From assembly GCA_015233395.1 (NCBI GenBank), contig JADFXV010000005.1:1-64000 (forward strand): a DNA stretch of 64,000 nucleotides, in the 5' to 3' direction. Below are positions 3,759-40,834 of the stretch, piece by piece; position 1 is the stretch's first letter, and the number at the start of each line of letters is the position of its first letter. Source of the stretch: Desulfovibrionaceae bacterium (lineage in GTDB: Bacteria; Desulfobacterota; Desulfovibrionia; Desulfovibrionales; Desulfovibrionaceae). The notes under the pieces are model-generated. The model saw nothing but the letters and a program-made list of their open reading frames with translations. It was not told where the DNA came from and made no database searches. A program made the position numbers and the translations under genes.

Positions 3759-3824
3759 TCGGGGGAGGAACCTTTTTTATAAAAAAGGTTCCTCCCCCGA
3801 ACCCCCGCCTCCCAAAAACTTTCA
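3759..3824 (+). repeat. R-family hairpin repeat, copy 2
   Basis: Perfect arms 3759-3780 and 3781-3800 (TCGGGGGAGGAACC with its complement around TTTTTTATAAAAAA), then the tail ACCCCCGCCTCCCAAAAACT. It follows the ATPase gene in the same orientation and could terminate the iron-type operon. Confidence 0.85.
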
Positions 3825-6265: not shown

Positions 6266-8046
6266 AGCGGCGCCACTCTCCAAGGCGCCTCTGGGCGCGG
6301 CTCGGCATCACCGCCAAACTCGGCCTGGCGTTCGCCCTGCTCGTGGCCTTGATCTTCATCGCCGCCTTCGTCCACTATTCCACGTTGCGCGTGGTCAACC
6401 GCGCCCAGGCCGAAATATTGACCAGCATGGAGATCCGCCAACGGGTTTTCGAAATGGACGACGGCCTGGAAAAGGCCCGCCGCCTGTACCGCGATTTCAT
6501 CTTCTATTATCCGGAAATCGGTTTCGAAGCGGCCCGGGAAACGTATTGCCGGCCCTTGCAGGCCTCCATGGACTCCGTGATCGCCCAAAGCGAGGAGCTC
6601 AAGGAATTGATCAACTGGTCCAACGTCAGCGACGCCTTGCGCAAGACCAACGTGAACGTCAATCTGTACCTGTCCTCGGCCAGGCGCTTTGCGGCCATAT
6701 TCCTGGAACTCGCAGACCTGGTCACGGCCATCGCCGGACCGCAAACCGGGCTGCACGCCCGGCAGGACGCCCTGATGAACGAGCTGATGGACGCCCTGGC
6801 CGGCGTGCGGACGGACGGCCGAGGCCCGGCGGCCGAAGCCGTCGAAAACATCGCCCTGAGCTGCCGGAAGATGGATCTGTTGTCCAAGCAGTACCGCATC
6901 GGCCGGCAGCGGCCGTACATGCAATCGGTGTTCAACTCGGTTCACGAAATCAACGCGGAGGTGGCCAGATCCGCGAAACTTTCGCCCGGGCAAAAGACAA
7001 TGTTGCGGGATCTGCTCGATCAATACGCCGGCGCCGGAGAAAAAATTTTGGACGCCGATACGGCCATCCGCAGCAAGGTCAACGATTTCAACCTGCAATT
7101 CGCGGCCTTGGACCCGATCTCTCTGGGCCTGAAAATGCTGGCCGCGACCGAGGTCGAAAACGCCCGGGGCCGCATCGACGCCGCCGGACGCCTGGCCCTG
7201 GGGGGCATCGTCGCCACCTCCGCGTTCGGCCTGATCTGCGCCCTGTGCATCGCCTGGGTGGTCAACGCGAGCGTGACGCGCAAGATCACCTCCATGACCA
7301 GAGCGGCCTTCGAGCTTCGCACCGGCAACCTCGACGCCCGCGTGAAAACCGGCGGCAGCGACGAACTGGCCATCCTGGCCGAAAGCTTCAACGCCATGGC
7401 CGAACGGCTCAAGGATCTGGTCGAAAATCTGGAAGGCAACGTCCGCCGGCGCACCCTCGAACTGGCGGCGAAAAACAAGGAGCTCGACGGGAAAAACCAC
7501 GCCCTGGAAATCCTGTCCACCACCGACCGCCTGACCGGAATCAACAACCGGCGCAAGGTCGAACAGGCCCTCCAGGCGGAACTGCTGCGGGCCAAACGCT
7601 ATCGCACCCCGTATTCGGTGATTCTGATCGATGTGGACAATTTCAAGCAGGTCAACGACAATTTCGGCCATCCCGCCGGAGACGCCGTGCTCATGCGCTT
7701 CGCCGGCATCCTCACCGCCCTGATCCGGGAAACCGACATGGCCGGGCGTTGGGGGGGCGAGGAATTCATCGTCGTCTGCCCGGAGTCCGATCTGCCGGTC
7801 GCGGCCGCCCTGGCCGAACGCTTGCGCGGAGAAATCGCCGACAGCGATTTTCCCCCGGCCGGCCAGGTCAGCGCCAGTTTCGGCGTGGCCGCCTACCGCC
7901 TTGGCGACGAGGTCCACAGCCTCATCCACCGGGCGGACAAGGCCCTGTACCAAGCCAAAAAAGCCGGACGCAACCGGGTGATGACGCAGGGCGAGACAGG
8001 CGAAAGCGACGGGACACAGGGCGAAGCCGGTTTGCAAAAGCCGTAG
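6262..8046 (+). CDS. Membrane diguanylate cyclase with HAMP and GGDEF domains
   Basis: A 594-residue protein. It has one N-terminal membrane helix (about residues 17-38), a long periplasmic helical sensor domain (about 40-310), a second helix (about 312-335), HAMP (ARVKTGGSDELAILAESFNAM), a coiled coil (about 380-420) and a C-terminal GGDEF domain. The active motif is GGEEF at 498-502. An RxxD inhibitory site (RETD) sits five residues before it, so product feedback by c-di-GMP is expected. The ATG overlaps the TGA of the binding-protein gene (ATGA), implying coupled translation and a shared sensory job. Start codon choice rests on that overlap. Confidence 0.93.
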   Translation: MKRRHSPRRLWARLGITAKLGLAFALLVALIFIAAFVHYSTLRVVNRAQAEILTSMEIRQRVFEMDDGLEKARRLYRDFIFYYPEIGFEAARETYCRPLQASMDSVIAQSEELKELINWSNVSDALRKTNVNVNLYLSSARRFAAIFLELADLVTAIAGPQTGLHARQDALMNELMDALAGVRTDGRGPAAEAVENIALSCRKMDLLSKQYRIGRQRPYMQSVFNSVHEINAEVARSAKLSPGQKTMLRDLLDQYAGAGEKILDADTAIRSKVNDFNLQFAALDPISLGLKMLAATEVENARGRIDAAGRLALGGIVATSAFGLICALCIAWVVNASVTRKITSMTRAAFELRTGNLDARVKTGGSDELAILAESFNAMAERLKDLVENLEGNVRRRTLELAAKNKELDGKNHALEILSTTDRLTGINNRRKVEQALQAELLRAKRYRTPYSVILIDVDNFKQVNDNFGHPAGDAVLMRFAGILTALIRETDMAGRWGGEEFIVVCPESDLPVAAALAERLRGEIADSDFPPAGQVSASFGVAAYRLGDEVHSLIHRADKALYQAKKAGRNRVMTQGETGESDGTQGEAGLQKP

Positions 8047-8064
8047 CCGCGCCCGCTCCTATTC

Positions 8065-8187
8065 CTGGGAGCATAAAGTTTTTAACTTTATGCTCCCAGC
8101 GGCGGACGCCGCTTGGCCCCGCGACGAGCGGGGCCGTATCAATAAACGGGAGCGGGAAAATGCAAAAATTTTCCGCTCCCGTTAATA
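8065..8187 (+). repeat. S-family four-hairpin element, copy B
   Basis: The best-formed copy. Stem 1 is CTGGGAGCATAAAGTT/AACTTTATGCTCCCAG, stem 2 GCGGC/GCCGC, stem 3 GGCCCCGC/GCGGGGCC, and stem 4 CGGGAGCGG(G)AAAAT/ATTTTCCGCTCCCG with a bulged G. It lies between convergent genes and includes the stop codon of the leftward amidotransferase-like gene, so it could serve as a shared transcript end. Confidence 0.85.
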
Positions 8188-9078
8188 TTTCCTGGCGGCG
8201 TCCACAAAGGCCTTGAACAGCCCGAGCATGTCCGGCCGCGTCTGGGCCATCCCCTCGGGATGCCACTGCACGCCCAGCATGAAGCGGTATTTGGGGTTTT
8301 CCATGGCCTCGACGATCCCGTCCGCGCTTTGCGCGCTGACCACGAAACCCTGGGCCGGGGTTTTCACGGACTGGTGGTGGAAGCTGTTCACGGTGACGGT
8401 TTTCTCCTTGAGCAGGGTCGCGGTCAGGGTGTTGGGGGCGACTTGCACGGTGATCGTGGCCACGTCGCGCTTGGCCTTCTGGGAATGCTTGACCACCGGC
8501 CCGTGCAGGGAGACGTCCTGGTAGAGCGTGCCGCCGAAGGCCACGTTCATGGCCTGGAGCCCCCGGCAGACGCCGAATACGGGCTTGTTCAGCTCTGCGG
8601 CGATCCGGATCGCCTCCAGATCGTAAGTGTCGCGCTCGGCCGAAATGTCTTCGGTCGCGGGCATGGGCTCCTCGTGGTAGAGCAGCGGATTGATGTCCGG
8701 CCCCCCGGCCACGAGCAGCCCGTCGATCAATTCCATGTGCTGGCGGATCACGGCCGCATCGGAAGACAGCGGCAGAATCAGCGGGGTTCCTCCGGCGGCG
8801 ATGACGGCGGCGACGTAGTCCGCGTTCTGGTACTCGCGCTCGGGTCCGGCGTGGCCGCTGGAGACGTCTGGCGGCATAAGCCCGGCGGTGATCCCGATGA
8901 CCGGCCGCTTGACCGCCGCCGGGGCGGGCGCGGCGGGACCGGCCGGACCGGGCGCCTGGCCCAGGACGGCTGCCCCGGGCGCGGCCGCGACCTGGGCCGG
9001 GGACGGGGAGGCCAGGGCCAAGAGCAGGGCCAGGCAGAAAAACACGCTGGCGACGATTCGTTTCACGACAAGCGGCAT
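8182..9078 (-). CDS. Exported class I glutamine amidotransferase-like hydrolase (peptidase C26, PuuD-like)
   Basis: A 298-residue protein with a clear signal peptide (RIVASVFFCLALLLALASPSPA) followed by a C26/gamma-glutamyl-hydrolase domain. The nucleophile Cys is in FGVCRGLQAMN, and the catalytic His-x-Glu is in VQWHPEGM. GGPDINPLLYHEEP matches the PuuD (gamma-glutamyl-GABA hydrolase) branch. Most PuuD proteins are cytoplasmic, so the signal peptide is unusual; it could act on gamma-glutamyl or peptidoglycan-derived compounds in the periplasm. It stands alone on the minus strand. Its stop lies inside repeat element S-B. Confidence 0.85.
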   Translation of the reverse strand: MPLVVKRIVASVFFCLALLLALASPSPAQVAAAPGAAVLGQAPGPAGPAAPAPAAVKRPVIGITAGLMPPDVSSGHAGPEREYQNADYVAAVIAAGGTPLILPLSSDAAVIRQHMELIDGLLVAGGPDINPLLYHEEPMPATEDISAERDTYDLEAIRIAAELNKPVFGVCRGLQAMNVAFGGTLYQDVSLHGPVVKHSQKAKRDVATITVQVAPNTLTATLLKEKTVTVNSFHHQSVKTPAQGFVVSAQSADGIVEAMENPKYRFMLGVQWHPEGMAQTRPDMLGLFKAFVDAARKY

Positions 9079-9145
9079 GGCGGGCTCCCGATGATCTTAA
9101 AGATATTCCTTTTACATGGCAAAATTGAGCCGTTGAATAATTTTT

Positions 9146-9954
9146 TTAGAAATTTTCCAACTCAAACATTCTCGTTGTAATTGTCTCAATTAGCGCATCT
9201 TCCGTACCAAACAGTGAAAAAGAATTTATATTCATTTTATCCAATTTTTTCAAAACTTTTTGTTTTTCAGTGACTGGTATTGTCACCATCTCAACTACAT
9301 CTTTGCCTTGGATATTTTGTTTAAAAAATTCGTCATGAGATCCATACACAACATGCCTATCCTTCGTCTGTAAACATACAGTATATTCACTTTGCTGAAG
9401 ATGATGTCTTTTATGTGTCTTGATATATGGACCAAGCGCGTGTATATGGGGATCACTATCACTCCAAGTTTTGCCACCACCAAGATATTCCATATAACTA
9501 AATATTGATACTTTTTCTGAACAGATATCTCCGTTAAAAGCAAAAAATGACGCGATAAATGGAGATCTCGTCCAATCTAATAGTGGAGATGGAAACCCAT
9601 GATGACGTAAATATGCCATAAATTCGTAGCCAGGCAATTCAGGGAAAGCTCCCCATTTATTATTTGTTACCAATTCATGAAACTCTTTACGCGTTGGAAT
9701 TATTAAATTTGTATCCTGGAATGAATCTATTAATTTCTTAGCAAACCATATTTTCTCATAACAATTTTTCATGGTTATATATTTTTCTTTTCGATCTAAT
9801 GTTGAATCTATCCCCCATAAAGAACACGCTTGTCCTCTATATAAAATATTGGAGAAATGCCCATTTCCCATTTTTCGCTTTTCGGAGACAGTTTCAGATA
9901 ACTTACTCACATAATTTTCATATTCTTCCCAACTTTAAGATGGCTTGTTGTCAT
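9146..9954 (-). pseudogene. FRG-domain protein gene with a probable 5' frameshift
   Basis: The protein has both hallmarks of the FRG domain: LYRGQACSLWGIDSTLDR and HHGFPSPLLDWTRSPFIASF. The gene is strongly AT-rich against GC-rich neighbours, so it was probably acquired. The main frame runs from 9146 to a GTG at 9910, but family-like sequence continues upstream (SWEEYENYV) to a TAA at 9937-9935 with no start. One added base in the A-run near 9934-9936 would join it to an ATG at 9954 and give MTTSHLKSWEEYENYV. It may be a real frameshift, a sequence error, or a gene using the GTG. FRG proteins are often linked to phage defence or toxin functions. It lies 30 bases after hicA on the same strand. 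Confidence 0.65.
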
Positions 9955-9984
9955 CTTGTCATTCAACACGCTAACATTAATCAC

Positions 9985-10164
9985 TTATTTTAGACCAAGT
10001 TGCCGCCGAATCAATTGACAAAGCGAATCTTTTATTTCGGCATGGCGGGGAATAGGCACCGTTCGCCCATTGGCTGGGTTCAAGTAAATATCATGATTGC
10101 CGCCATGGCGCTTGAGAACACAACCCATCGCTTCAAGCACCTGGAGGAAAGCCCGGCGTTTCAC
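9985..10164 (-). CDS. hicA: HicA-type mRNA interferase toxin
   Basis: A 59-residue protein starting with GTG. It reads VKRRAFLQVLEAMGCVLKRH then GGNHDIYLNPANGRTVPIPRH and ends EIKDSLCQLIRRQLGLK. The conserved HGGNHDIY with the catalytic His, and the VPIPRHAEIK segment, identify the HicA double-stranded RNA-binding-fold RNase. The GTG overlaps the TGA of hicB (GTGA), so the pair is translationally coupled. The order antitoxin then toxin is one of the two known for hic loci. HicA cleaves mRNA when not bound by HicB. Confidence 0.88.
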   Translation of the reverse strand: MKRRAFLQVLEAMGCVLKRHGGNHDIYLNPANGRTVPIPRHAEIKDSLCQLIRRQLGLK

Positions 10165-10540: not shown

Positions 10541-10605
10541 TAAAGTTTTTGGGAGGCGGGGGTCCGGGGGAGGAACCTTTTTTTCAAAAAAGGTTCCTCC
10601 CCCGG
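10541..10605 (-). repeat. R-family hairpin repeat, copy 3
   Basis: Arms of CCGGGGGAGGAACC and complement around TTTTTTTCAAAAAA, with the tail read on the minus strand (CCCCCGCCTCCCAAAAACTT). It starts about 20 bases after the secD stop in the direction of secD transcription, fitting a terminator or 3' end. The gap 10362-10540 shows no gene. Confidence 0.85.
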
Positions 10606-12253: not shown

Positions 12254-12319
12254 CCGGGGGAGAAACCTTTTTTAAAAAAAAGGTTTCTCCCCCGGGCCCC
12301 CGCTTCCAAAAAACTTTTA
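12254..12319 (+). repeat. R-family hairpin repeat, copy 4
   Basis: Arms CCGGGGGAGAAACC and complement around an A/T core, tail GGGCCCCCGCTTCCAAAAAA on the plus strand. It lies between yajC and secD, both on the minus strand, so here the tail points against transcription. This argues that not all copies are simple terminators. Confidence 0.82.
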
Positions 12320-25675: not shown

Positions 25676-26932
25676 TCAGGGCAGGAGCCTGAGTTCCTCG
25701 ACCAGCCTCGTCAGCTCCGCGATCGCGCCAAGCCGCGCCTCGCCGGTCATTTTGGCGGTGTCCACGACCAGATTCAGTCCGTCGCGCTCCGCTTTCAGGT
25801 ATCGGCCCCGGTCCTGGTCGCCGCCCAGGATGGAAGTCACCGCGAACGGACGCACCGAACGCCTGATGCCCTTGACCTGGAGCGGTTCGCGCTCCTCGGC
25901 CGCGACCATGTCCTGGACCAGGGCGTACGTTTCGTACGACATGAGGATGCCGCCCGGGTCGGCGCTGGCTTCGAGCCTGGCGGCCAGGTTCACCTCGCCG
26001 CCGATGATGGTGTAGTCCATGCGCTCGGTGCTGCCGAAATTGCCGACGTTGCAATAGCCGGTGTTGATGCCGATGCGCATGCGCAGGGGGTTTTGAATGC
26101 CCTTGGCCAGCCACTGGGTTTCAAGCTCGGCCATGCGGCGCTGCATGGCCAGGGCCATGCCGAGACAGGCCCGGGCGTCCTGCTCGACGCCGAGCGTCTG
26201 CGGATCGCCGAAGAACATGAGCATGGCGTCGCCGATGAACTTGTCCACGGTCGCGCCGTAGGCCAGCGCGATGCCGCTCATTTCGGTCAGATAGGTGTTG
26301 AGCAGCCAGGTCAGGTCTTCGGGCTGCATGTCGTCGGTGGTCTGGGTGAAGCTCACGATGTCGCTGAAAAACACGGTCAGCTTCTTGCGCTCGGTGGACA
26401 GAGTCACGTCCTTGTCCCCGGAGAAGATCGAGGAATAGACCTGGGGCGAAAGATATTTGGCCAGTTTGGCGGACAAGCCCTGGAGCATCTCGTTTTTGCC
26501 GCGCAGGTCGTGCAAAAGCTCCTCGCGCGACGGTCTGGCGAGCATTGCGCGCTGGGCCTCGATGAAGGCCGGCGACGGCCGCAGGTCGTATTGCGGCAGA
26601 TGCTTGAAGGCCGAAAGGATCGTGGGCGCGCCGTAGGCTTCGACGGCGTTGAAGGCGTTGAAAAACCGCGCCGCCCCGGGCGGCGCCGCCGTCTTTTCCT
26701 TGTAGGCGAAGCGCAAAGCGAGCCCCGGCCGGTTGTCGCGCGTCTCCAGGGCGGCCTCGACCTCGACCCCGCCCGTCTTGAGTCCCAGGCGGGTCAATTC
26801 GGAAAAGACCGTGCCGAGCCTGGCGGAGGCGATATGGTCAAAACCCAGGGCGTCGGCCAGGTTCATGATCTTGCGCCGCGATTCGTTGAAGGCGTCCGCG
26901 TGGGCGACGCTCAGCGTCCCGAGCGCGGTCAC
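25676..26932 (-). CDS. Class III adenylate cyclase with degenerate RsbT-like N-terminal domain
   Basis: A 418-residue protein and the last gene of the stressosome-like operon. The C-terminal half is a class III cyclase: metal Asp in VFFSDIVSFT and IGDAMLMFFGDP, Lys in VDKFIGD and Asp in MDYTIIGG (the pair for adenine), and Asn/Arg in GEVNLAARLE. cAMP is therefore the predicted product. It is nearly the same as the cyclase at 30568 from the YLSPQ segment onward. The N-terminal 75 residues resemble an anti-sigma-type ATPase fold (RLGTVFSELTRLGLKTGGVE) but lack the N-box Asn and the glycine boxes. The GTG at 26932 overlaps the phosphatase stop (GTGA). Confidence 0.88.
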   Translation of the reverse strand: MTALGTLSVAHADAFNESRRKIMNLADALGFDHIASARLGTVFSELTRLGLKTGGVEVEAALETRDNRPGLALRFAYKEKTAAPPGAARFFNAFNAVEAYGAPTILSAFKHLPQYDLRPSPAFIEAQRAMLARPSREELLHDLRGKNEMLQGLSAKLAKYLSPQVYSSIFSGDKDVTLSTERKKLTVFFSDIVSFTQTTDDMQPEDLTWLLNTYLTEMSGIALAYGATVDKFIGDAMLMFFGDPQTLGVEQDARACLGMALAMQRRMAELETQWLAKGIQNPLRMRIGINTGYCNVGNFGSTERMDYTIIGGEVNLAARLEASADPGGILMSYETYALVQDMVAAEEREPLQVKGIRRSVRPFAVTSILGGDQDRGRYLKAERDGLNLVVDTAKMTGEARLGAIAELTRLVEELRLLP

Positions 26933-27522
26933 GGGGTGCACCGCAGGATCAGGCAGGAGGCGTCGTCGTCGCCCTTGCCGAAATGGGCGAGCACCTCGCC
27001 GGCAATCGCGGCGGCGTTGCCGAGCAGAAGCCCGGGACGGTCGAAGAGTTCGAAATGCTCGCGCACGCCGTCGGAATAGAGCATGAGCACGTCGCCCGGG
27101 AACATGGTCAGGTCCAGGCGCCTGGGCGTGGGCATCGAGTAGCCGACGATGCCGTCGCGGCCGAGCAGCCGGACCGCCTCGCCGCCGAACAGCCTGGCCG
27201 TGATGTTGCCTACGCCGACCAGGCCGAGCGCGCCGGTTTCGCGGTCGAAACGACCCAGAGTGACCACCGCCCCCCGCGTTCCCTTGAGGCGCCCGTGCAA
27301 GGCGCTCATCAAGTCCGTAAGTTCCATCATGCTATTTTGCTTGAGAAATTCCACGGCGGCCAGGGCCACCTCGTGGGCCTGCGGCCCGTGTCCGAGGACG
27401 TCGATCAGCGCCAGAAAGCACTGCCCGCCGCTGTCGACGATCACTCCGGCGTCGCCGCATTCGTCGGGCAGCCCGCTTAAGGCCCGCGTCACCAGCCGGC
27501 AATCGGCGTTAGGCATGCTCAT
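26929..27522 (-). CDS. RsbX-like PP2C-type serine phosphatase
   Basis: A 197-residue minimal SpoIIE/PP2C-type phosphatase, close in length to Bacillus RsbX. Motifs are GDAGVIVDSGGQCFLALIDV with LGHGPQAHEVA, VGVGNITARLFG, MLYSDGVREHF and the final Asp pair GKGDDDASCLI. RsbX removes phosphates from RsbR and RsbS to reset the stressosome. Its ATG overlaps the stop of the RsbT-like kinase gene (ATGA), and its own stop overlaps the cyclase start, so all are coupled in translation. Confidence 0.9.
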   Translation of the reverse strand: MSMPNADCRLVTRALSGLPDECGDAGVIVDSGGQCFLALIDVLGHGPQAHEVALAAVEFLKQNSMMELTDLMSALHGRLKGTRGAVVTLGRFDRETGALGLVGVGNITARLFGGEAVRLLGRDGIVGYSMPTPRRLDLTMFPGDVLMLYSDGVREHFELFDRPGLLLGNAAAIAGEVLAHFGKGDDDASCLILRCTP

Positions 27523-27929
27523 CTCCACTTGCGGCACAGGATGCGGGCGCCGCGCCCGGGCGCGGAGTCGATATGAAATTCGTCCATGATCCGCTTCACG
27601 CTCGGCAGCCCCAGGCCCAGGCTGTCGATCGTGCTGTAATTGTCGCTCATGGCCAGTTCGAGATCGGCGATGCCCGGTCCATTGTCCTTGGCCTCGACCT
27701 CCAAGGCCGTGCGGCCGGCGCTCTCCACGATGCGCAGGCTGATCTCTCCCTTGCCGGCGTAGCGCGCGATGTTCGTGGCCAGTTCCGAGACCGCCGTGGC
27801 CAGCATGAATTGGCGGGTCTCGTCGAAACCGGCCTGCTTGCAAAGCTGCCTGGCCGCCCCGACGGCCACGGTCTTGTCGCTGACGTCGCCAATCTCGACG
27901 CGCGTGGAATCGAGGATGCGCTCAGCCAC
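27519..27929 (-). CDS. RsbT-like switch kinase
   Basis: A 136-residue GHKL-type serine kinase matching RsbT in length and motifs. The N-box is SELATNIARYAGKGE, the G1 box EAKDNGPGIADLELA, and the G2 part SLGLGLPSVKRIMDEFHI. In stressosomes RsbT phosphorylates RsbR and RsbS, is released and then activates an output protein. I chose GTG at 27929, which overlaps the RsbS-like stop and gives a normal RsbT length; a longer TTG start at 27968 is possible. Confidence 0.92.
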   Translation of the reverse strand: MAERILDSTRVEIGDVSDKTVAVGAARQLCKQAGFDETRQFMLATAVSELATNIARYAGKGEISLRIVESAGRTALEVEAKDNGPGIADLELAMSDNYSTIDSLGLGLPSVKRIMDEFHIDSAPGRGARILCRKWR

Positions 27930-28860
27930 CTTCGCCGCCGTCTTGTTCGTCGCCCCCGCCCCGCGCAAGGCCGGGCTGGGTGGAATCCTCCCTGAGCGCG
28001 GGCGGGGAAAAACCCAGCCGGTCGAAGGCGTCCTCGAGGTTGACGGCCCCCTCGATGCCCGAAAAATCGACGTCCAGGTCCATCAGCGACGACACCACCC
28101 CGGGCTGAAAGCCCACGAACACCGTTTTCGCCCCGAGCAGGGCGATGACGCGCTCCATCTCGACCAGACGGGCGCAAGCGGCCGAGTCGAGCAGGCGCAC
28201 CGCCGAGACGTCGACGATCACCGCGCGCGCGCTGGCGGAATGCACCAGGCGCACGACCCGCTCGCGCACCAGGTCGAGCACGGCGTCGGTCAGCCCGTCC
28301 GGCAGCGGCGCGATCAGGCAATCGCCCACGCAGTGCATGCCGGAGGCGGAATGGACGCCGGCGTCGAGCACGGCCTGCAGGCGCTCTTCGCCGCGCCGCA
28401 GGTCCTGCTCGGTCAGCTCGCGTTCGGCGATCTCGCGCTCCATGGCGATCTTCTGGCTCTCGATGCGCTCGAAGGCCTCCTTCAGATCCGTGGCCATCTT
28501 GTTGAAGGCCGCGGAGAATTCGCCCATGAAATCGACGCGCTGGGAAAAATCCCCGGCCGCGATCCGGGTGGCCGCCCAGGTCAGGTTCTTGAGGTTGGCC
28601 AGCAGCGCCTTGAGCGAACCCGCGACCGCCATGCGCCCCTTGGGCGCCGCGGCGCCGAGCTCCCCGTTCGCCACGGCCCGCATGGCCGTGGCGAAAGCCT
28701 CGTACTCGGCCGCGAATTTGTTGATGAAACCGGTCAGCTGGCGAAATTCGTCGTCGGGATACTCCTCGGGCAGAACCACGGGCGAGACGGCGCGGCCGGT
28801 GAGCAGTCCGTGGACGGCCGCGGTCAGCTGGTCGACGAGTTCCGGGGCGACGGTCGGCAT
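27922..28860 (-). CDS. HAMP-linker protein with C-terminal RsbS-like STAS domain
   Basis: A 312-residue soluble protein. Residues about 45-165 form helices with a HAMP-like linker (LTWAATRIAAGDFSQRVDFMGEF) and a coiled coil. Residues about 175-290 are an RsbS-type STAS domain: ARAVIVDVSAVRLLDSAACA with the phosphorylatable Ser, then LLGAKTVFVGFQPGVVSSLM. RsbS is normally a bare STAS domain of about 120 residues, so this is an RsbS with an added signalling linker. No membrane helix is seen. It lies between the V4R gene and the RsbT-like kinase. Confidence 0.85.
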   Translation of the reverse strand: MPTVAPELVDQLTAAVHGLLTGRAVSPVVLPEEYPDDEFRQLTGFINKFAAEYEAFATAMRAVANGELGAAAPKGRMAVAGSLKALLANLKNLTWAATRIAAGDFSQRVDFMGEFSAAFNKMATDLKEAFERIESQKIAMEREIAERELTEQDLRRGEERLQAVLDAGVHSASGMHCVGDCLIAPLPDGLTDAVLDLVRERVVRLVHSASARAVIVDVSAVRLLDSAACARLVEMERVIALLGAKTVFVGFQPGVVSSLMDLDVDFSGIEGAVNLEDAFDRLGFSPPALREDSTQPGLARGGGDEQDGGEGG

Positions 28861-28878
28861 GGCGTTTTTTCGCTGGGC

Positions 28879-29403
28879 CTAGCGCGGCTTGGCCAGGAAA
28901 CGGCAGGTCCTGTCCCCGGTGCACCAGCAGTCGGTCTCGCGGGCCGTGAACGGCTTGCCGGAGTACTCTTCGAGAACCCCGGCCAAAAAGCCCTCGTCGT
29001 AGGCGCAGATGACCTCGTCGGTCTGGGGCAGCCCGGAGCAGTCCAGATCCTCGCCCACGGACACGGTGAATTCGAGCGTGGCCGCATCGGCGCTCTCGAT
29101 GCGCAGGATGCCCACGCCCAGATCCTTGAGCGTCTTTTGCAGCTCGGCCACGAAGGCCGCCAGATCGCCCCTGGCCTTGATCAGGTTGCGGCAAAAATGC
29201 CGGCCGGCCACTTCGCCGGCCTTGACGAAGAGCCTGTTGGCCTCGTCCACTCCGTGCTCGGCGATCAGGACGTCTCGCAGGGTGAACTGCATCAGCCGGT
29301 AGACCGCGAGGTCGGTGGAGCGGCCGAGATTGGGCCGGCCGGCCTCCAGGTCGCCGAGCATGCCCCAATGAAACGTGGATTCGCTGCGCTCTTCCTTGAA
29401 CAT
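28879..29403 (-). CDS. V4R (4-vinyl reductase) domain sensor protein
   Basis: A 174-residue protein made almost wholly of a V4R domain, a small-ligand-binding module. The conserved cysteines are Cys159, Cys161 and Cys167 in DCWCTGDRTCRFLA, which often bind metal. HGVDEANRLFVKAGEVAGRHF is the typical helical part. Placed between the RsbR-like and RsbS-like genes, it is a likely signal input for the switch, perhaps sensing an aromatic compound or metal. The ligand is not known. Confidence 0.85.
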   Translation of the reverse strand: MFKEERSESTFHWGMLGDLEAGRPNLGRSTDLAVYRLMQFTLRDVLIAEHGVDEANRLFVKAGEVAGRHFCRNLIKARGDLAAFVAELQKTLKDLGVGILRIESADAATLEFTVSVGEDLDCSGLPQTDEVICAYDEGFLAGVLEEYSGKPFTARETDCWCTGDRTCRFLAKPR

Positions 29404-29444
29404 GACCGTCTCCTTTGTATTGCTGATCGCGGTCTTCGCCCGGC

Positions 29445-30251
29445 TCAAACGCGCCGGACTTCGAGTTTCAGATGGGCCAGCCCGTCGGACAGGGCGTCTT
29501 TGAGGGTGGAATTGGTGGTCACGTCGCCCAGGTCGATGCCGAGTTGGACGAGCGTCTGGGCCACGCCCGCCGAGATGCCGGAGATGATGCAGCGGCAGCC
29601 CATGAGCCTGGTGGCCTTGGTGATCTTGATCAGGTGGTTGGCCACGGCGGTGTCCATGGCGGCCACGCCCTGGATGTCGAGGATGATGATCTTGGCCGAG
29701 GTCTCGGTGATCTTCGACAGCATGGCGTCCATCATCTGCTTGGCGCGCATGGAGTCGACCACGCCGACCACGGGCAAAACCACGATGCCGTCCCACAAAC
29801 GGATGGCCGGGGTGGAAATTTCCTCGATGGTGCGGCTTTGCTCCAGGAGCTTGCGCTCGGAACGGACCCGCTCGGTGATGTCGATGACGTATTCCACGCC
29901 GCCGACGACCACGCCTTCGTTGTTCTTGAGCGGAGTGGCCGAATACTCGATGGGCACGGCCCGGCCGTGGGGCGACACCTCGTTGCGCGCCGAATGCGAT
30001 TCGCCGGTGTCCATGGCCTGGCGCATGCGGCATTCCGGGGTGTTGCAATGGATGGATTTCATCAGGTCGTAGCAGTGCTTGCCCTGAATCTCCTTCCAAG
30101 GCAGACGCAGAAAGCCCCGGCCGGCGGCGTTGAGGAACACGATCTTCAGATCGGTGTCCACGGCCATGACCGGGGTCGGCACCTGTTCCAGCACCGCCAC
30201 GGCCAAAGCCTCGTTCAACTCGACCGATTCCGCGTTGGTTTTGACTTGCAT
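29445..30251 (-). CDS. RsbR-like PAS-STAS stressosome protein
   Basis: A 268-residue protein with an N-terminal PAS domain (about 15-125; VPTPVMAVDTDLKIVFLN) and an RsbR-type STAS domain. The latter begins with ISTPAIRLWDGIVVLPVVGV and holds the phospho-site region LDIQGVAAMDTAVANHLIKI, with Thr in the DT motif as in RsbR. RsbR and RsbS co-build the stressosome core; the PAS domain would be the sensor turret. The Cys pair in SIHCNTPECRM within the PAS may bind a cofactor. It is the first gene of the operon. Confidence 0.9.
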   Translation of the reverse strand: MQVKTNAESVELNEALAVAVLEQVPTPVMAVDTDLKIVFLNAAGRGFLRLPWKEIQGKHCYDLMKSIHCNTPECRMRQAMDTGESHSARNEVSPHGRAVPIEYSATPLKNNEGVVVGGVEYVIDITERVRSERKLLEQSRTIEEISTPAIRLWDGIVVLPVVGVVDSMRAKQMMDAMLSKITETSAKIIILDIQGVAAMDTAVANHLIKITKATRLMGCRCIISGISAGVAQTLVQLGIDLGDVTTNSTLKDALSDGLAHLKLEVRRV

Positions 30252-30287
30252 GGTCGCTCCTTTGATTTGTTGCCGGACCGGGGAAAA

Positions 30288-30323
30288 CCGGGGGAAAAAC
30301 CCCTTTTCCCCAAAAAAACTTTC
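30288..30323 (+). repeat. R-family repeat, truncated copy 6
   Basis: Only one arm (CCGGGGGAAAAACCCCTTTT) is left, followed directly by the tail CCCCAAAAAAACTTTC. It looks like a copy that lost one arm by deletion. Confidence 0.6.
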
Positions 30324-30378
30324 AAGTTTCGAGCTGTCCTGGCCCGGAGGACCAAAGCCGGAAACACTGTTTTTTCCC

Positions 30379-30409
30379 CAGGGGGCCGCGCCCCCGGCCC
30401 CCGCTTCAC
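30379..30409 (+). repeat. V-family GC hairpin, copy 2
   Basis: GGGGG-CCGCG-CCCCC followed by GGCCCCCGCTTCA, matching the copy at 19641 in arm and tail. It lies in the gap between the two partner-switching operons. Confidence 0.55.
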
Positions 30410-30464
30410 GCCGGGCTACGCGTCCATCCCCCTCGCGTCCATCCCCAAGCCGGTTCTAAACCAT

Positions 30465-30530
30465 GAAAATTTTTTGGAGGCGGGGGTTCGGGGGAGGAAC
30501 CTTTTTTTCAAAAAAGGTTCCTCCCCCGAT
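30465..30530 (-). repeat. R-family hairpin repeat, copy 7
   Basis: Arms TCGGGGGAGGAACC and complement around TTTTTTTCAAAAAA, tail on the minus strand. It lies just after the 3' end of the SiaC-linked cyclase in the direction of transcription and could end that operon. Confidence 0.85.
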
Positions 30531-30567
30531 TCTCCCATCTTCCCTCTCGGCCATCTTCCCTCTCACG

Positions 30568-31596
30568 CTACCCCATCGCCCGCAAATTTTCGATAACGCC
30601 TTCGATGGCGGCGATGGCTTCTTCGCGCGCCGGGCCGGCGAGGGCGGTCAGGTCGCATTTGGCGTCCAGGCCGTCGCATTTGGCCGTGAGGTAGCGCAGA
30701 CGGCAGGCGTCGCCTACGCCGGTGACGGCGAACGAGCGCACTTCGCGGCGGATGCCCTTGACGCGCAGCGGTTCGCGTTCCTCGGCCGCGACCAGGTCCT
30801 GGACCAGGGCGTAGGTTTCGTACGACATGAGGATGCCGCCCGGGTCGGCGCTGGCTTCGAGTCTGGCGGCCAGGTTCACTTCGCCGCCGATAATGGTGTA
30901 GTCCATGCGCTGCGCGCTGCCGAAATTACCCACGTTGCAGTAGCCGGTGTTGACGCCGATGCGCATGCGCAGGGGGTTTTCGACGCCCTTGGCGAGCCAC
31001 TGGGTTTCGAGTTCGGCCATGCGGTTCTGCATGGCCAGGGCCATGCGCAGGCAGGCCCGGGCGTCCTCTTCGACCCCGAGCGTCTGGGGATCGCCGAAGA
31101 ACATGAGCATGGCGTCGCCGATGAACTTGTCCACGGTCGCGCCGTGCTCGGAGGCGATCTGGCCCATTTCCGTAAAATAGGTGTTGAGCAGCCAGGTCAG
31201 GTCTTCGGGCTGCATGTCGTCGGTGGTCTGGGTGAAGCCCACGATGTCGCTGAAGAAGACCGTGAGTTTCTTGCGTTCGGTGGACAGGGTGACGTCCTTG
31301 TCGCCGGAGAAGATCGAGTTGTAGATCTGCGGCGAAAGGTAGCGCGAGAGCTTCCCGGACAGGTTTTCGAGCATCCTGTTTTTTTCGTCCAGGGCCTTGG
31401 AGGCGGTCGTGAGCTTGGCCTCGTTGCGGTCGGCCAGGCGCATCAGCCGCTGCATGTTCTTCAGGAGCTTCTGGTAATCGGCGAGCAGGGCCGTGAAATG
31501 CTCTTCGGCGGCCGGGTCGGCGAAGGCGCCTTTTTCCAGAAGCGCCGCGGCGCGGGCCACGGTCTCGACTTCGTCCTTGAAAATGTCGTAGCCCAT
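30568..31596 (-). CDS. Class III adenylate cyclase, output of the Sia-like module
   Basis: A 342-residue protein with an N-terminal helical coiled-coil region (about 1-85) and a class III cyclase domain. Metal-binding Asp117 (FFSDIVGFT) and Asp161 (GDAMLMFF), adenine-type Lys157 and Asp232, and transition-state Asn241 and Arg245 are all present, so it should make cAMP. From GKLSRYLSPQ to the end of the catalytic domain it is close to identical with the cyclase at 25676. It follows the SiaC-like gene by three bases. In the known Sia pathway this place is held by a diguanylate cyclase (SiaD). Confidence 0.9.
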   Translation of the reverse strand: MGYDIFKDEVETVARAAALLEKGAFADPAAEEHFTALLADYQKLLKNMQRLMRLADRNEAKLTTASKALDEKNRMLENLSGKLSRYLSPQIYNSIFSGDKDVTLSTERKKLTVFFSDIVGFTQTTDDMQPEDLTWLLNTYFTEMGQIASEHGATVDKFIGDAMLMFFGDPQTLGVEEDARACLRMALAMQNRMAELETQWLAKGVENPLRMRIGVNTGYCNVGNFGSAQRMDYTIIGGEVNLAARLEASADPGGILMSYETYALVQDLVAAEEREPLRVKGIRREVRSFAVTGVGDACRLRYLTAKCDGLDAKCDLTALAGPAREEAIAAIEGVIENLRAMG

Positions 31597-31599
31597 AGC

Positions 31600-31980
31600 C
31601 TATTCGCCGAGCTGCAGCCGGAATTTGGCCGCCGTGAGATCCTCGGCGAACTCCTCGCCCATTTCCTGGATGTCGTCGCCTTCCTCGCAGGCCCAGACGA
31701 TGGCGACGTCGTTGCCGGCCTTGGCCGTCTGTTCGAGCAGGTCGAACAGGCCGAGAATGGCTTTGGCGCTGGAGCTGTTGAAGTAGATCAGTTCGAAGGT
31801 GAAATCGACGCGCGCGCCGCGCAGGCGGGCGAAATGCTCCCGCAGCCGGTCCATCAAAGGGGCGAAGAACTCGGCGATGTCTTCCGGATAGCATTCGCCC
31901 TTGAGGCGGTAGACGTTGGCGTCGAAGTCGAAATCCACTTCCGGCGTGCGGGCGCTGGCCCCGATTTTGAGTGTGTCCAT
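31600..31980 (-). CDS. SiaC-like phospho-switch protein (DUF1987)
   Basis: A 126-residue protein of the SiaC/DUF1987 family. It begins with the typical EVDFDFDANVYRLKGECYPE and carries LIYFNSSSAKAILGLFDLLE, the region where the phosphorylated residue of SiaC lies. In Pseudomonas, unphosphorylated SiaC binds and activates the cyclase SiaD, SiaB phosphorylates it and SiaA removes the phosphate. Here it lies directly between SiaB-like and cyclase genes, so the adenylate cyclase is the likely partner. Confidence 0.88.
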   Translation of the reverse strand: MDTLKIGASARTPEVDFDFDANVYRLKGECYPEDIAEFFAPLMDRLREHFARLRGARVDFTFELIYFNSSSAKAILGLFDLLEQTAKAGNDVAIVWACEEGDDIQEMGEEFAEDLTAAKFRLQLGE

Positions 31981-31995
31981 GGGTGATCCTCTCTT

Positions 31996-32541
31996 TCAGA
32001 ACAAGGCCTTGAGGGTGAAAAAACTGCTGGCCTCGTCGACCGGCGTGAAATCGAACTCGATGCCCCGGGTGGCGCGCCGGGCGATGTCGATGAAACCCAC
32101 GCCCGCGCCCTTGCTGCCTTCCGGAACGTCGCCGCGCAGGACGTCCTTGTGCAGCGATTTGAGGCCTTGCTTGTCCAGTCCCCGGATGGTCTCCAGGTTG
32201 GCTCGCAGGCGCGGCACGTCGGCGGCCGCGACCAGGTTGCCGCAGGAGACGAAGATATCGCCGTCCAGGTCGCCCACGGCCAGGATGCCGAAGGGCATTT
32301 CCGGCGGGCCGCCGCCGTCGAGCTTCTCCGCCGAATAGCGGATGACGTTTTGCACCTGCTCCACGAAGACCGCGAACACGCTGCGCGAGGTCTTGGCGTC
32401 CGCCTCCCGGGCCTGCATGTGCCGCCGGATGGCGTTGCCGATGCCGAGCAGGATCTCCTCGGTCATGCATCCGGAGTAGCAATACCCGATTCCGTTGCGA
32501 CTTAAAACCTGCCTGAGAGCGTACATTTCTTCAGCCAGCAT
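31996..32541 (-). CDS. SiaB-like protein kinase
   Basis: A 181-residue protein of the SiaB family, distantly GHKL-like. VFAVFVEQVQNVIRYSAE supplies the N-box-like Glu and Asn. GAGVGFIDIARRATRGIEFD is the later conserved part. SiaB would phosphorylate the SiaC-like protein encoded 15 bases downstream. Its ATG lies within the last codons of the SiaA-like gene (11-base overlap). Confidence 0.85.
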   Translation of the reverse strand: MLAEEMYALRQVLSRNGIGYCYSGCMTEEILLGIGNAIRRHMQAREADAKTSRSVFAVFVEQVQNVIRYSAEKLDGGGPPEMPFGILAVGDLDGDIFVSCGNLVAAADVPRLRANLETIRGLDKQGLKSLHKDVLRGDVPEGSKGAGVGFIDIARRATRGIEFDFTPVDEASSFFTLKALF

Positions 32542-34396
32542 GGTTGCCTCCGAAAGTGAATCCGATCACGGCCAGGTCGTCGCGGCGCGCCTGGGCGCCC
32601 CGGTGCTCTTCCAAACGCTCGAAGACCAGTTCGCCGTGGCGCGTAAACGGCTCGCCGTCGAGTTCCTCGATGGCGGCCATGAAACGCTTCTTGCCGAAAC
32701 TGCGCCCGGTGCGCTCGCCGATCTGGTCGAAAAGACCGTCCGTGGCCAGGTAAAAGCGCCTGTTCGCGGCGATGGCGATCTCCACGTTGGTGAAGGCCTG
32801 CTCCGGGGGAATGCCCCGGTAGCCGATGCCGCTGCGGTCGCCCTTGACGACCGTGACGCCGGAAGGGTCGCCCGGGTCCCGGATGAACAGGGGAAAATGC
32901 GCGCCGGCGTAGACGACGGACGTGGGGTTGGGCGCGATGTAGCACACCCCGAGTTCCAGGCCGTCGTCGGAGTCGCCGCCCGCGACGTGCTGGGAAAGCA
33001 GGTTCTGCACCCGTTTGTGCATGTGGGCGATCAGTCCCGCCGGGTCGCCGGGCTCGACGCGGCGCAGGGCGACTTCCAGCGCGCCGCCGGCGATGAGCGT
33101 CATGAAGGCGCCGGGCACGCCGTGGCCGGTGCAATCGGCCAGGATGATCAACTGGCCCTCGCCCCACTGTTTGTACCAATAGATGTCGCCGCCGACCACG
33201 TCCCTGGGTTTCCAGAGCGCGAAGCGCTCGGGCGGCTTGCCGGCGAAGAATTCCTCATCGGGAAGAACCGCGCGCTGGATGCGGCTGGCGTAGCGGATGC
33301 TGCCGGCGATGACTTCCATGGCGTCGCGCAGGTTCTTGGCGGCGAGGATCTCCGCCTCTCTCGCCTGGAACTTGATCTGATGGTTGCGCAGCAGGACGAG
33401 CGCCAGGAAAAAAAGCAGCAGCGAGGCCAGGCTGGACAAGCCCCAGACCCAGAGTTCGCTTTCGACGCCGATGGCGTTGCTCTGGTCGTCGAGCAAAACG
33501 AGCGTCCAATCCCCCTGGGGGTCGTTCCAGGCCACCGGCGCCTTGGCCAGGGCGTAGCGGCGGCCGTCGGCCCAGACGACGCTGTCGTCGAGGGAAAAAG
33601 GAAGGGGCTTCGGATCGGCCGTATCGAACAGGCGGCCGAACTGCTTGCTGTCGCGGATCGCCTGGATGCGGGCCGGGTCGCGCCGCCCGGCGAGAGCGAA
33701 ATTCCAATCGAGATTGGTGCTGGCGAAGACGACTTTGTTCGGGGTCAAAAGCAGGGCGTAGCCTCGAAAGCCCAGAAGCAATTCGTCGATGCTCTGCAGT
33801 CCGATGCGGATCGCGGCCGCGCCGACGACCGGCGAGGCGCGTTCGATGTCGGCATGCACCGGCGCGGCGAAATACAGCGCCCGCCGCCCGGTGTTGACGC
33901 TCACGGCGGCGTAGATGCTGTCCTTGCCCGCCATGGCGTTGCGGAAATAGGGGCGATACCTGACGTCCATGCCCGTGCTGGAAATTCCGGCGCTGTCCCA
34001 GGAGGTCGCAATCACGCCGTCCTTGTCCACGATGAAACTGCCCTCGGCCTTGCTGTCCTCGCCCAAAAACCGAAGGCTGTCGCGCATAGCCGGCGTGTCG
34101 GCCGGCAAAAGCCTGACGGCCACATCCTTGGCCAGGCTGCTGGTCAAGCCGAAATAGCTCAAATATCCCATGATCTTGCCGTTCGACGTCCGGGACATGA
34201 TCTCGATCGAGCGCCTGGACGCCTCGGCTTCGAGCGCCCTGAGCTGGCCGGATTCCGCGTAGCGTTCGACCTCGACGAGAACGCTCATGCCGAGGATGAG
34301 CGAGGCGAATACCGCAGCCGCCCAATAGCGCGGGCGATTGTCCAGCCAAAAGGCGACAAAGCGGTCGGCGAATTTTACCGGAACGAAGTGCTGCAT
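32531..34396 (-). CDS. SiaA-like membrane sensor PP2C phosphatase
   Basis: A 621-residue membrane protein. A helix at about residues 22-42 and another at about 325-350 flank a large periplasmic Cache-type sensor domain (DVRYRPYFRNAMAGKDSIYA). The cytoplasmic C-terminus is a SpoIIE/PP2C phosphatase: VVGGDIYWYKQ, LADCTGHGVPGAFMT, YLATDGLFDQ and ARRDDLAVIGF. This matches SiaA, which dephosphorylates SiaC on an outside signal. The ligand of the Cache domain is unknown. It is the first gene of the siaA-siaB-siaC-cyclase operon. Confidence 0.9.
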   Translation of the reverse strand: MQHFVPVKFADRFVAFWLDNRPRYWAAAVFASLILGMSVLVEVERYAESGQLRALEAEASRRSIEIMSRTSNGKIMGYLSYFGLTSSLAKDVAVRLLPADTPAMRDSLRFLGEDSKAEGSFIVDKDGVIATSWDSAGISSTGMDVRYRPYFRNAMAGKDSIYAAVSVNTGRRALYFAAPVHADIERASPVVGAAAIRIGLQSIDELLLGFRGYALLLTPNKVVFASTNLDWNFALAGRRDPARIQAIRDSKQFGRLFDTADPKPLPFSLDDSVVWADGRRYALAKAPVAWNDPQGDWTLVLLDDQSNAIGVESELWVWGLSSLASLLLFFLALVLLRNHQIKFQAREAEILAAKNLRDAMEVIAGSIRYASRIQRAVLPDEEFFAGKPPERFALWKPRDVVGGDIYWYKQWGEGQLIILADCTGHGVPGAFMTLIAGGALEVALRRVEPGDPAGLIAHMHKRVQNLLSQHVAGGDSDDGLELGVCYIAPNPTSVVYAGAHFPLFIRDPGDPSGVTVVKGDRSGIGYRGIPPEQAFTNVEIAIAANRRFYLATDGLFDQIGERTGRSFGKKRFMAAIEELDGEPFTRHGELVFERLEEHRGAQARRDDLAVIGFTFGGNHAG

Positions 34397-40792: not shown

Positions 40793-40834
40793 ATCGGGGG
40801 AGGAACCCTTTGTGAACAAAGGGTTCCTCCCCCG
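40793..40834 (+). repeat. R-family hairpin repeat, copy 8
   Basis: Perfect arms TCGGGGGAGGAACCCTTTG and complement around GTGAAC. It lies between the convergent hydrolase and nrfA genes, ten bases from the nrfA stop, and can serve as a two-way terminator. The tail is weak here. Confidence 0.8.

Follow-up and report, generated by a model that had tools for sequence, protein, structure and literature searches.

In the 64,000-nucleotide stretch of DNA from a Desulfovibrionaceae bacterium analysed here (contig JADFXV010000005.1, positions 1 to 64,000; hereafter the window), we find two partner-switching modules, each ending in the gene of a class III cyclase. Operon 1 encodes a SiaA-like phosphatase with a Cache-like region, SiaB, SiaC and the cyclase cyc1, in genes that overlap or are separated by short gaps, and the densely packed operon 2 encodes RsbR, a V4R-domain protein, an RsbS with a HAMP-like module, RsbT, RsbX and a second class III cyclase, cyc2. 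A preliminary description had read these genes in this order on one strand, and a Pfam and open reading frame (ORF) check confirms all ten predicted genes at their positions, all on the minus strand. It had also linked both cascades to the cyclases, and on sequence grounds it is very likely that both do control a class III cyclase, because each enzyme carries an N-terminal acceptor matching the switch of its own operon and the same pairing recurs in other genera; comparative genomics supports this wiring well. Its further idea, that a single cAMP pool integrates the two signals, is a hypothesis. To the mechanism as a whole, two switches each with a cyclase output of its own, we assign a probability of roughly 0.62.

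The front end of cyc1 is a stalk of the SiaC-binding type. It spans residues 1-84 and is modelled by AlphaFold2 (AF2), with moderate confidence, as helices 4-21 and 28-84. A direct phmmer search of the PDB with the stalk alone gave nothing useful and a profile was needed; a profile of 17 stalks, run against 177,635 PDB sequences, had as its best match residues 58-99 of SiaD (7e6g; E = 0.0019), the motif bound by SiaC in the crystal structure (PMC8457831). At six of the SiaD contact positions the cyc1 stalk has a conserved or similar residue (K77/R, V78/L, R80/R, I81/L, D83/D and R84/R). The same stalk fronts GGDEF proteins (L040, L041, L047) and GAF-HD proteins (L043, L062, L064, L101) as well as class III cyclases, and nearly always lies beside SiaC. 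When the linkage was checked in relatives, by a scan of one contig collection, all 9 stalk-cyclases were found directly after SiaB-SiaC, as against none of the 11 stalk-less cyclases (Fisher 6e-6, kinship ignored). The carriers include Pseudodesulfovibrio metagenome-assembled genomes (MAGs), Rhodospirillales, a Hyphomicrobiales MAG and the isolate Roseospirillum parvum 930I. By their catalytic domains the stalk-cyclases are rejected as one clade (approximately unbiased test, p = 2e-5); catalytic domains thus appear to have moved between front ends, with the SiaC pairing recurring across swapped cores. Two Rhodospirillaceae MAG loci (L101, L103) have several stalk proteins at one SiaC region, a class III cyclase, a GAF-HD protein and, weakly, a histidine kinase, which suggests one switch with several outputs.

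The first 160 residues of cyc2, like those of nine homologues (10 members in all), have no Pfam match, and a direct phmmer search of the PDB again returned nothing useful, so that profile and fold were needed. An AF2 model of this adaptor (predicted local distance difference test score 89) has RsbW, SpoIIAB and UsfX as its top PDB matches in Foldseek (E = 6e-5 and up), and its profile aligns with RsbT in hhalign at 81% over 52 columns. The four-helix RsbU_N domain was rejected as an identity for it, there being no Pfam match and the modelled fold being that of an alpha/beta switch kinase. Both the Asn of the N-box and the DxGxG motif have been lost, and the ATP site is apparently dead. As judged from homologues, the GTG at 26932 is a more likely start for cyc2 than 26941.

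The adaptor is found in 10 of 297 genomes of the class, its own included, together with one weak match, and two more examples come from another family of the phylum; a plasmid search found none on plasmids. It opens the gene directly after RsbX in 12 of 12 strong cases, fused either to a class III cyclase (own genome, G006, G200 and G117) or to a SiaA-like PP2C phosphatase (the other eight), and in our sample RsbX orthologues at E < 1e-50 occur in exactly the same 10 genomes of the class. More distant stressosome clusters of the class and phylum encode RsbT and then an RsbX with an additional RsbT domain in front of it, an arrangement seen in L195-L197 and L230-L233. At six of nine such distant loci examined, RsbX is followed by the gene of an output protein that has an RsbT-like domain of its own at the front. 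The ATP motifs of this domain are intact in L195, L197 and L233 and partly decayed in L196, L198 and L230, and in most a similar P.EE..N coil follows it; L199, L231 and L232 gave no such match. Because the ATP motifs after RsbX form a graded series from intact to decayed, the front end of cyc2 is likely to be a decayed RsbT used as an adaptor.

The strongest evidence that stressosome, Sia switch and cyclase belong to one signalling logic comes from the relatives in which they stand in series. Three genomes (G208, G076 and G193) encode RsbR, RsbS, RsbT, RsbX, an adaptor-PP2C protein, SiaB, SiaC and a stalk-cyclase in one direction, an order that suggests a two-tier cascade running from stressosome to Sia switch to cyclase. 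The G193 cluster (L060 4049-11774) contains, besides the adaptor-PP2C protein, another PP2C phosphatase encoded next to a periplasmic binding protein, with a single SiaB-SiaC-cyclase set, as if two inputs met on one SiaC. Three further genomes have a comparable chain that ends in a GAF-HD protein, assigned by Pfam (HD_5) in G030 and by sequence similarity in G093 and G138; the Sia half is divergent in G138, and SiaC was not called in G030. The window holds the split form, with the stressosome leading straight to cyc2 and the Cache-SiaA protein leading via SiaC to cyc1.

Behind these front ends, both cyclases possess the full class IIIb set D, K, D, T, N, R (two metal-binding Asp, K/T for the substrate, N/R for the transition state) within the motifs FFSDI, DKFIGDA and DYTIIGGEVNLAARLE, and the catalytic residues are invariant in homologues. 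The best PDB match of the cyc1 catalytic core is CyaB (3r5g, 1.5e-64). We infer cyclic AMP (cAMP) to be the product of both enzymes; their own genome encodes six class III cyclases and 11 cyclic nucleotide monophosphate (cNMP)-binding matches. The preliminary description had called the cyclases near-identical, which is true of the catalytic core only: the identity of ~78% at the amino-acid level is confined to cyc1 residues 72-294, whereas the C-terminal parts differ and the N-termini are unrelated. A tree of 27 relatives joins the two cores as sisters (100/99), and at shared degenerate residues 150 of 201 codons are identical, against 110 expected from codon usage. A whole-gene tandem duplication was rejected, the core alone being common to both. 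Since a shared core with an excess of identical codons lies behind unrelated N-termini, a core swap or gene conversion, in which the core was copied or converted and the front ends kept, fits better. A third paralogue in the same genome (404 residues; G000:C74:12231-12974, L037) is a REC-cyclase with 60% identity and was rejected as a member of this system.

The upstream components of operon 1 match their Sia counterparts. In the SiaA-like protein the SpoIIE domain is found by Pfam at 4e-18, and over its whole length the PP2C domain can be aligned with that of P. aeruginosa SiaA (6k4e, 8e-45), with the acidic metal-site positions kept, as judged by eye from the alignment. Its N-terminal region scores 37.7 bits against dCache_1, below the Pfam cut-off of 45 bits, and the Cache-type sensor assignment is therefore provisional. 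The SiaB-like kinase matches SiaB (6kko) over its full length at 5e-24, and the SiaC-like protein matches SiaC (6kko/7e6g) at 1.6e-14 and has a phosphorylatable Ser (N-S-S) in place of P. aeruginosa T68.

Operon 2 likewise contains the parts of a stressosome, and its products are predicted to assemble into such a megadalton complex. RsbR combines a PAS sensor with a STAS domain that matches the RsbR of stressosome 7o0i at 1.3e-43 and in which the phospho-acceptor motifs DTAVA and AQTLV can be read. The STAS domain of RsbS has RsbS as its best PDB match (6qcm, 1.5e-14; RsbR, 2e-4), and its phosphosite Ser (LDSAA), aligned with 6qcm, is conserved. The ATP-site motifs of the RsbT kinase are intact (SELATN, DNGPG and GLGLP, the N-box and G-boxes). 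RsbS is more than a plain STAS protein, for it opens with a HAMP-like module that elsewhere is paired with V4R proteins. Relatives of the V4R protein occur in 26 of 148 other genomes of the class, and in most cases inspected the next gene opens with the same HAMP-like domain, joined to a histidine kinase or GGDEF domain (read by eye) or, in L161, to PP2C. V4R protein and HAMP-like module thus form a recurrent two-gene sensor pair, which in the window is built into RsbS. The V4R protein is likely to be a small-molecule sensor, and because its gene is paired with the HAMP-like domain in other genomes, its signal probably enters via RsbS and not via the PAS domain of RsbR.

The preliminary description had the genes tightly coupled, and so they are within each operon; between the operons lies a gap of 316 nucleotides (nt) that contains a palindrome, so the two are probably separate transcription units. 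A promoter scan gave a single site, on the wrong strand, and was uninformative, and terminator-like sites in the scan did not exceed the shuffled-sequence level. The palindrome, GGGGGAGGAACCTTTTTT with its reverse complement, has further copies at 3761-3798, 10566-10603, 12256-12293 and 40796-40833, giving five copies in the window, with 10 arm matches against 0.03 expected. A sigma factor was sought as an output among the genes of the locus and none was found. Elsewhere in the window, positions 8001-10000 form a patch of lower G+C (51% against ~64%), for which only ORFs were listed.

Table 1. Features of the two partner-switching operons (window coordinates).
Feature	Position	Strand	Domains and remarks
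SiaA-like phosphatase	32531..34396	-	N-terminal Cache-like sensor region, C-terminal PP2C/SpoIIE
SiaB-like switch kinase	31996..32541	-	DUF6272, Pfam 3e-40
SiaC-like phosphoprotein	31600..31980	-	PF09345, 1e-35
cyc1, class III cyclase behind stalk	30568..31596	-	Guanylate_cyc PF00211, 1e-29
Perfect 20-nt palindrome	30488..30529	.	inter-operon; terminator-like or dispersed repeat
RsbR-like co-antagonist	29445..30251	-	PAS_4-STAS
V4R-domain protein	28879..29403	-	Pfam V4R, 6e-15
RsbS-like scaffold with N-terminal HAMP-like module	27922..28860	-	HAMP 3e-7, STAS 8e-6
RsbT-like switch kinase	27519..27968	-	HATPase_c_2, 8e-12
RsbX-like feedback phosphatase	26929..27522	-	SpoIIE 4e-12; start is the ATG at 27522
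cyc2, class III cyclase with adaptor	25676..26941	-	Guanylate_cyc, 2e-26
cyc2 N-terminal adaptor and start of coiled coil	26462..26941	-	no Pfam family; start probably 26932

The proposed mechanism runs as follows. An extracytoplasmic signal at the Cache-like region of SiaA would render its PP2C domain active, and SiaA would then dephosphorylate SiaC, reversing the action of the kinase SiaB; in its free form SiaC would bind the cyc1 stalk and stabilise the coiled-coil dimer, turning catalysis on as SiaC does with SiaD. On the other side, a stressosome of RsbR, with its PAS domain, and RsbS, with its HAMP-like module fed by the V4R protein, would hold RsbT until a signal led RsbT to phosphorylate the STAS proteins and depart. 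RsbT would then engage the adaptor of cyc2 and the coiled coil that follows it, joining the catalytic halves, and RsbX would reset the complex. A mechanistic precedent exists in RsbU, whose linker is rigidified by RsbT (PMC12143880). The contacts, the direction of control and the choice of RsbT, and not the STAS proteins, as partner of the adaptor are what we infer.

Several observations weigh against this mechanism. The PDB match of the stalk profile is modest, with designed helical repeats close behind SiaD; SiaD S82, Y85 and Q86 are replaced by Ala, Asn and Glu in the cyc1 stalk, and the stalk has one clear copy of the motif where SiaD has two. The AF2 model of cyc1 is weak over parts of its catalytic domain, leaving only the stalk interpretable, and the Foldseek TM-scores of the adaptor reach only 0.45-0.5 by query length. 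Supported branches yield only three independent pairs for the association of stalk and SiaC, and because weak tree support leaves no more than these, the independent contrasts carry no formal significance. Several statements, moreover, are based on one search each and on contigs from MAGs. The sign of control at cyc2 may also be the opposite of that proposed, because the RsbT homologue of Moorella is reported to attenuate its cyclase (Quin 2012, as cited in PMC7647112).

Operon 2 could also work without any contact between RsbT and cyc2, the RsbT-like adaptor docking the cyclase on the STAS domains of RsbR and RsbS and phosphorylation by RsbT releasing (or retaining) it. That the adaptor is RsbT-like is in keeping with such a scheme, and so is the RsbX of the distant operons, which is bound to reach the STAS proteins and also has an N-terminal RsbT domain, an arrangement that looks like STAS docking; the beginning of helix 1 (FNESRRK), in addition, ranks among the best-conserved parts of the adaptor. 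However, cyc2 has lost the nucleotide-lid half of the domain, through which SpoIIAB touches the STAS protein in its complexes, and the coil after the adaptor (PSREELL..KN) shows unusual conservation, in keeping with a partner bound at a linker as in RsbU. We regard release from the STAS proteins as doubtful, and prefer direct engagement of the adaptor by RsbT.

It seems to us quite improbable that only one switch, or neither, controls its cyclase and that the enzymes are co-transcribed passengers regulated in another way, for example by bicarbonate. This genome is rich in class III cyclases, and REC, MASE10 and solute-binding domains also precede catalytic domains of the same clade, but those cyclases have neither stalk nor adaptor, whereas the stalk goes with SiaC and the adaptor with RsbX in nearly every case examined and on several different outputs. 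Least probable of all is a pairing of cyc1 with cyc2 in heterodimers, which, as class III enzymes share their active sites across subunits, would act as a coincidence detector for two signals; although their similar cores, sisters within one genome with an excess of identical codons, would lend themselves to this, each cyclase has complete catalytic residues and in relatives only one of the pair is present. Two switches with separate cyclase outputs remain our preferred explanation.

The closest known counterpart of operon 1 is SiaABCD of P. aeruginosa (PMC8457831, PMC7647112), which shares the PP2C phosphatase SiaA, the kinase SiaB, the phosphoprotein SiaC and a helical SiaC-binding stalk on the output, and differs in having Thr and not Ser at the phosphosite and the GGDEF protein SiaD in place of a class III cyclase. 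Operon 1 would work like SiaABCD but is strictly not a member, because its output is a PF00211 protein and not a GGDEF SiaD. Operon 2 shares with the RsbRSTX stressosomes of Gram-negative bacteria such as Vibrio vulnificus the order RsbR, RsbS, RsbT, RsbX and an output directly after RsbX, and is set apart by the class III cyclase, the RsbT-derived adaptor and the HAMP-like RsbS paired with V4R. In the survey of those systems the outputs are PP2C, c-di-GMP (cyclic di-GMP) and histidine kinase proteins, most of them without RsbU_N, with no class III cyclase among them, and how the signal leaves the complex is left open (PMC9237108). The stressosome of Moorella thermoacetica (Quin 2012, as cited in PMC12143880 and PMC7647112) likewise controls a second-messenger enzyme, the diguanylate cyclase MtG, by way of an N-terminal acceptor, although there an RsbU_N domain fills that role and c-di-GMP is made. 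In G208, G076 and G193 the serial clusters parallel the Bacillus sigma-B pathway (RsbRST, RsbU, RsbV/RsbW, SigB) in the succession of stressosome, PP2C, kinase/antagonist pair and output, but with SiaB/SiaC for RsbW/RsbV, a class III cyclase for the sigma factor and an adaptor unlike RsbU_N.

Across the parts of the literature available to us, the outputs named are sigma factors, PP2C phosphatases, c-di-GMP enzymes and histidine kinases, and class III cyclases are not among them. Nor did the accessible parts of the open literature contain a described case of a stressosome, SiaC/DUF1987 or partner switch ending in an adenylate cyclase or cAMP, in agreement with the statement of the preliminary description that it knew of no described system with this pairing. 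An exchangeable coiled-coil mode of control has been proposed for phosphatases, kinases and GGDEF enzymes, with adenylate cyclases unnamed (PMC12143880), and our results would extend this toolkit to class III cyclases.

We lean towards the broader view that cAMP can be the end point of both stressosomes and Sia switches and that a decayed RsbT fused to the output is a general, undescribed output plug of stressosomes, one that would sit on cyclases, on PP2C phosphatases and, in intact form, on histidine kinases. An RsbT-derived adaptor that always comes first after RsbX and carries interchangeable outputs offers, in one lineage, a testable answer to the question of how the signal exits and, if true, would explain how stressosomes address many outputs without RsbU_N. 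The serial clusters amount to a cascade resembling that of sigma-B, with a second messenger taking the place of the sigma factor at its final step, and two stress-sensing switch systems would be tied to cAMP.

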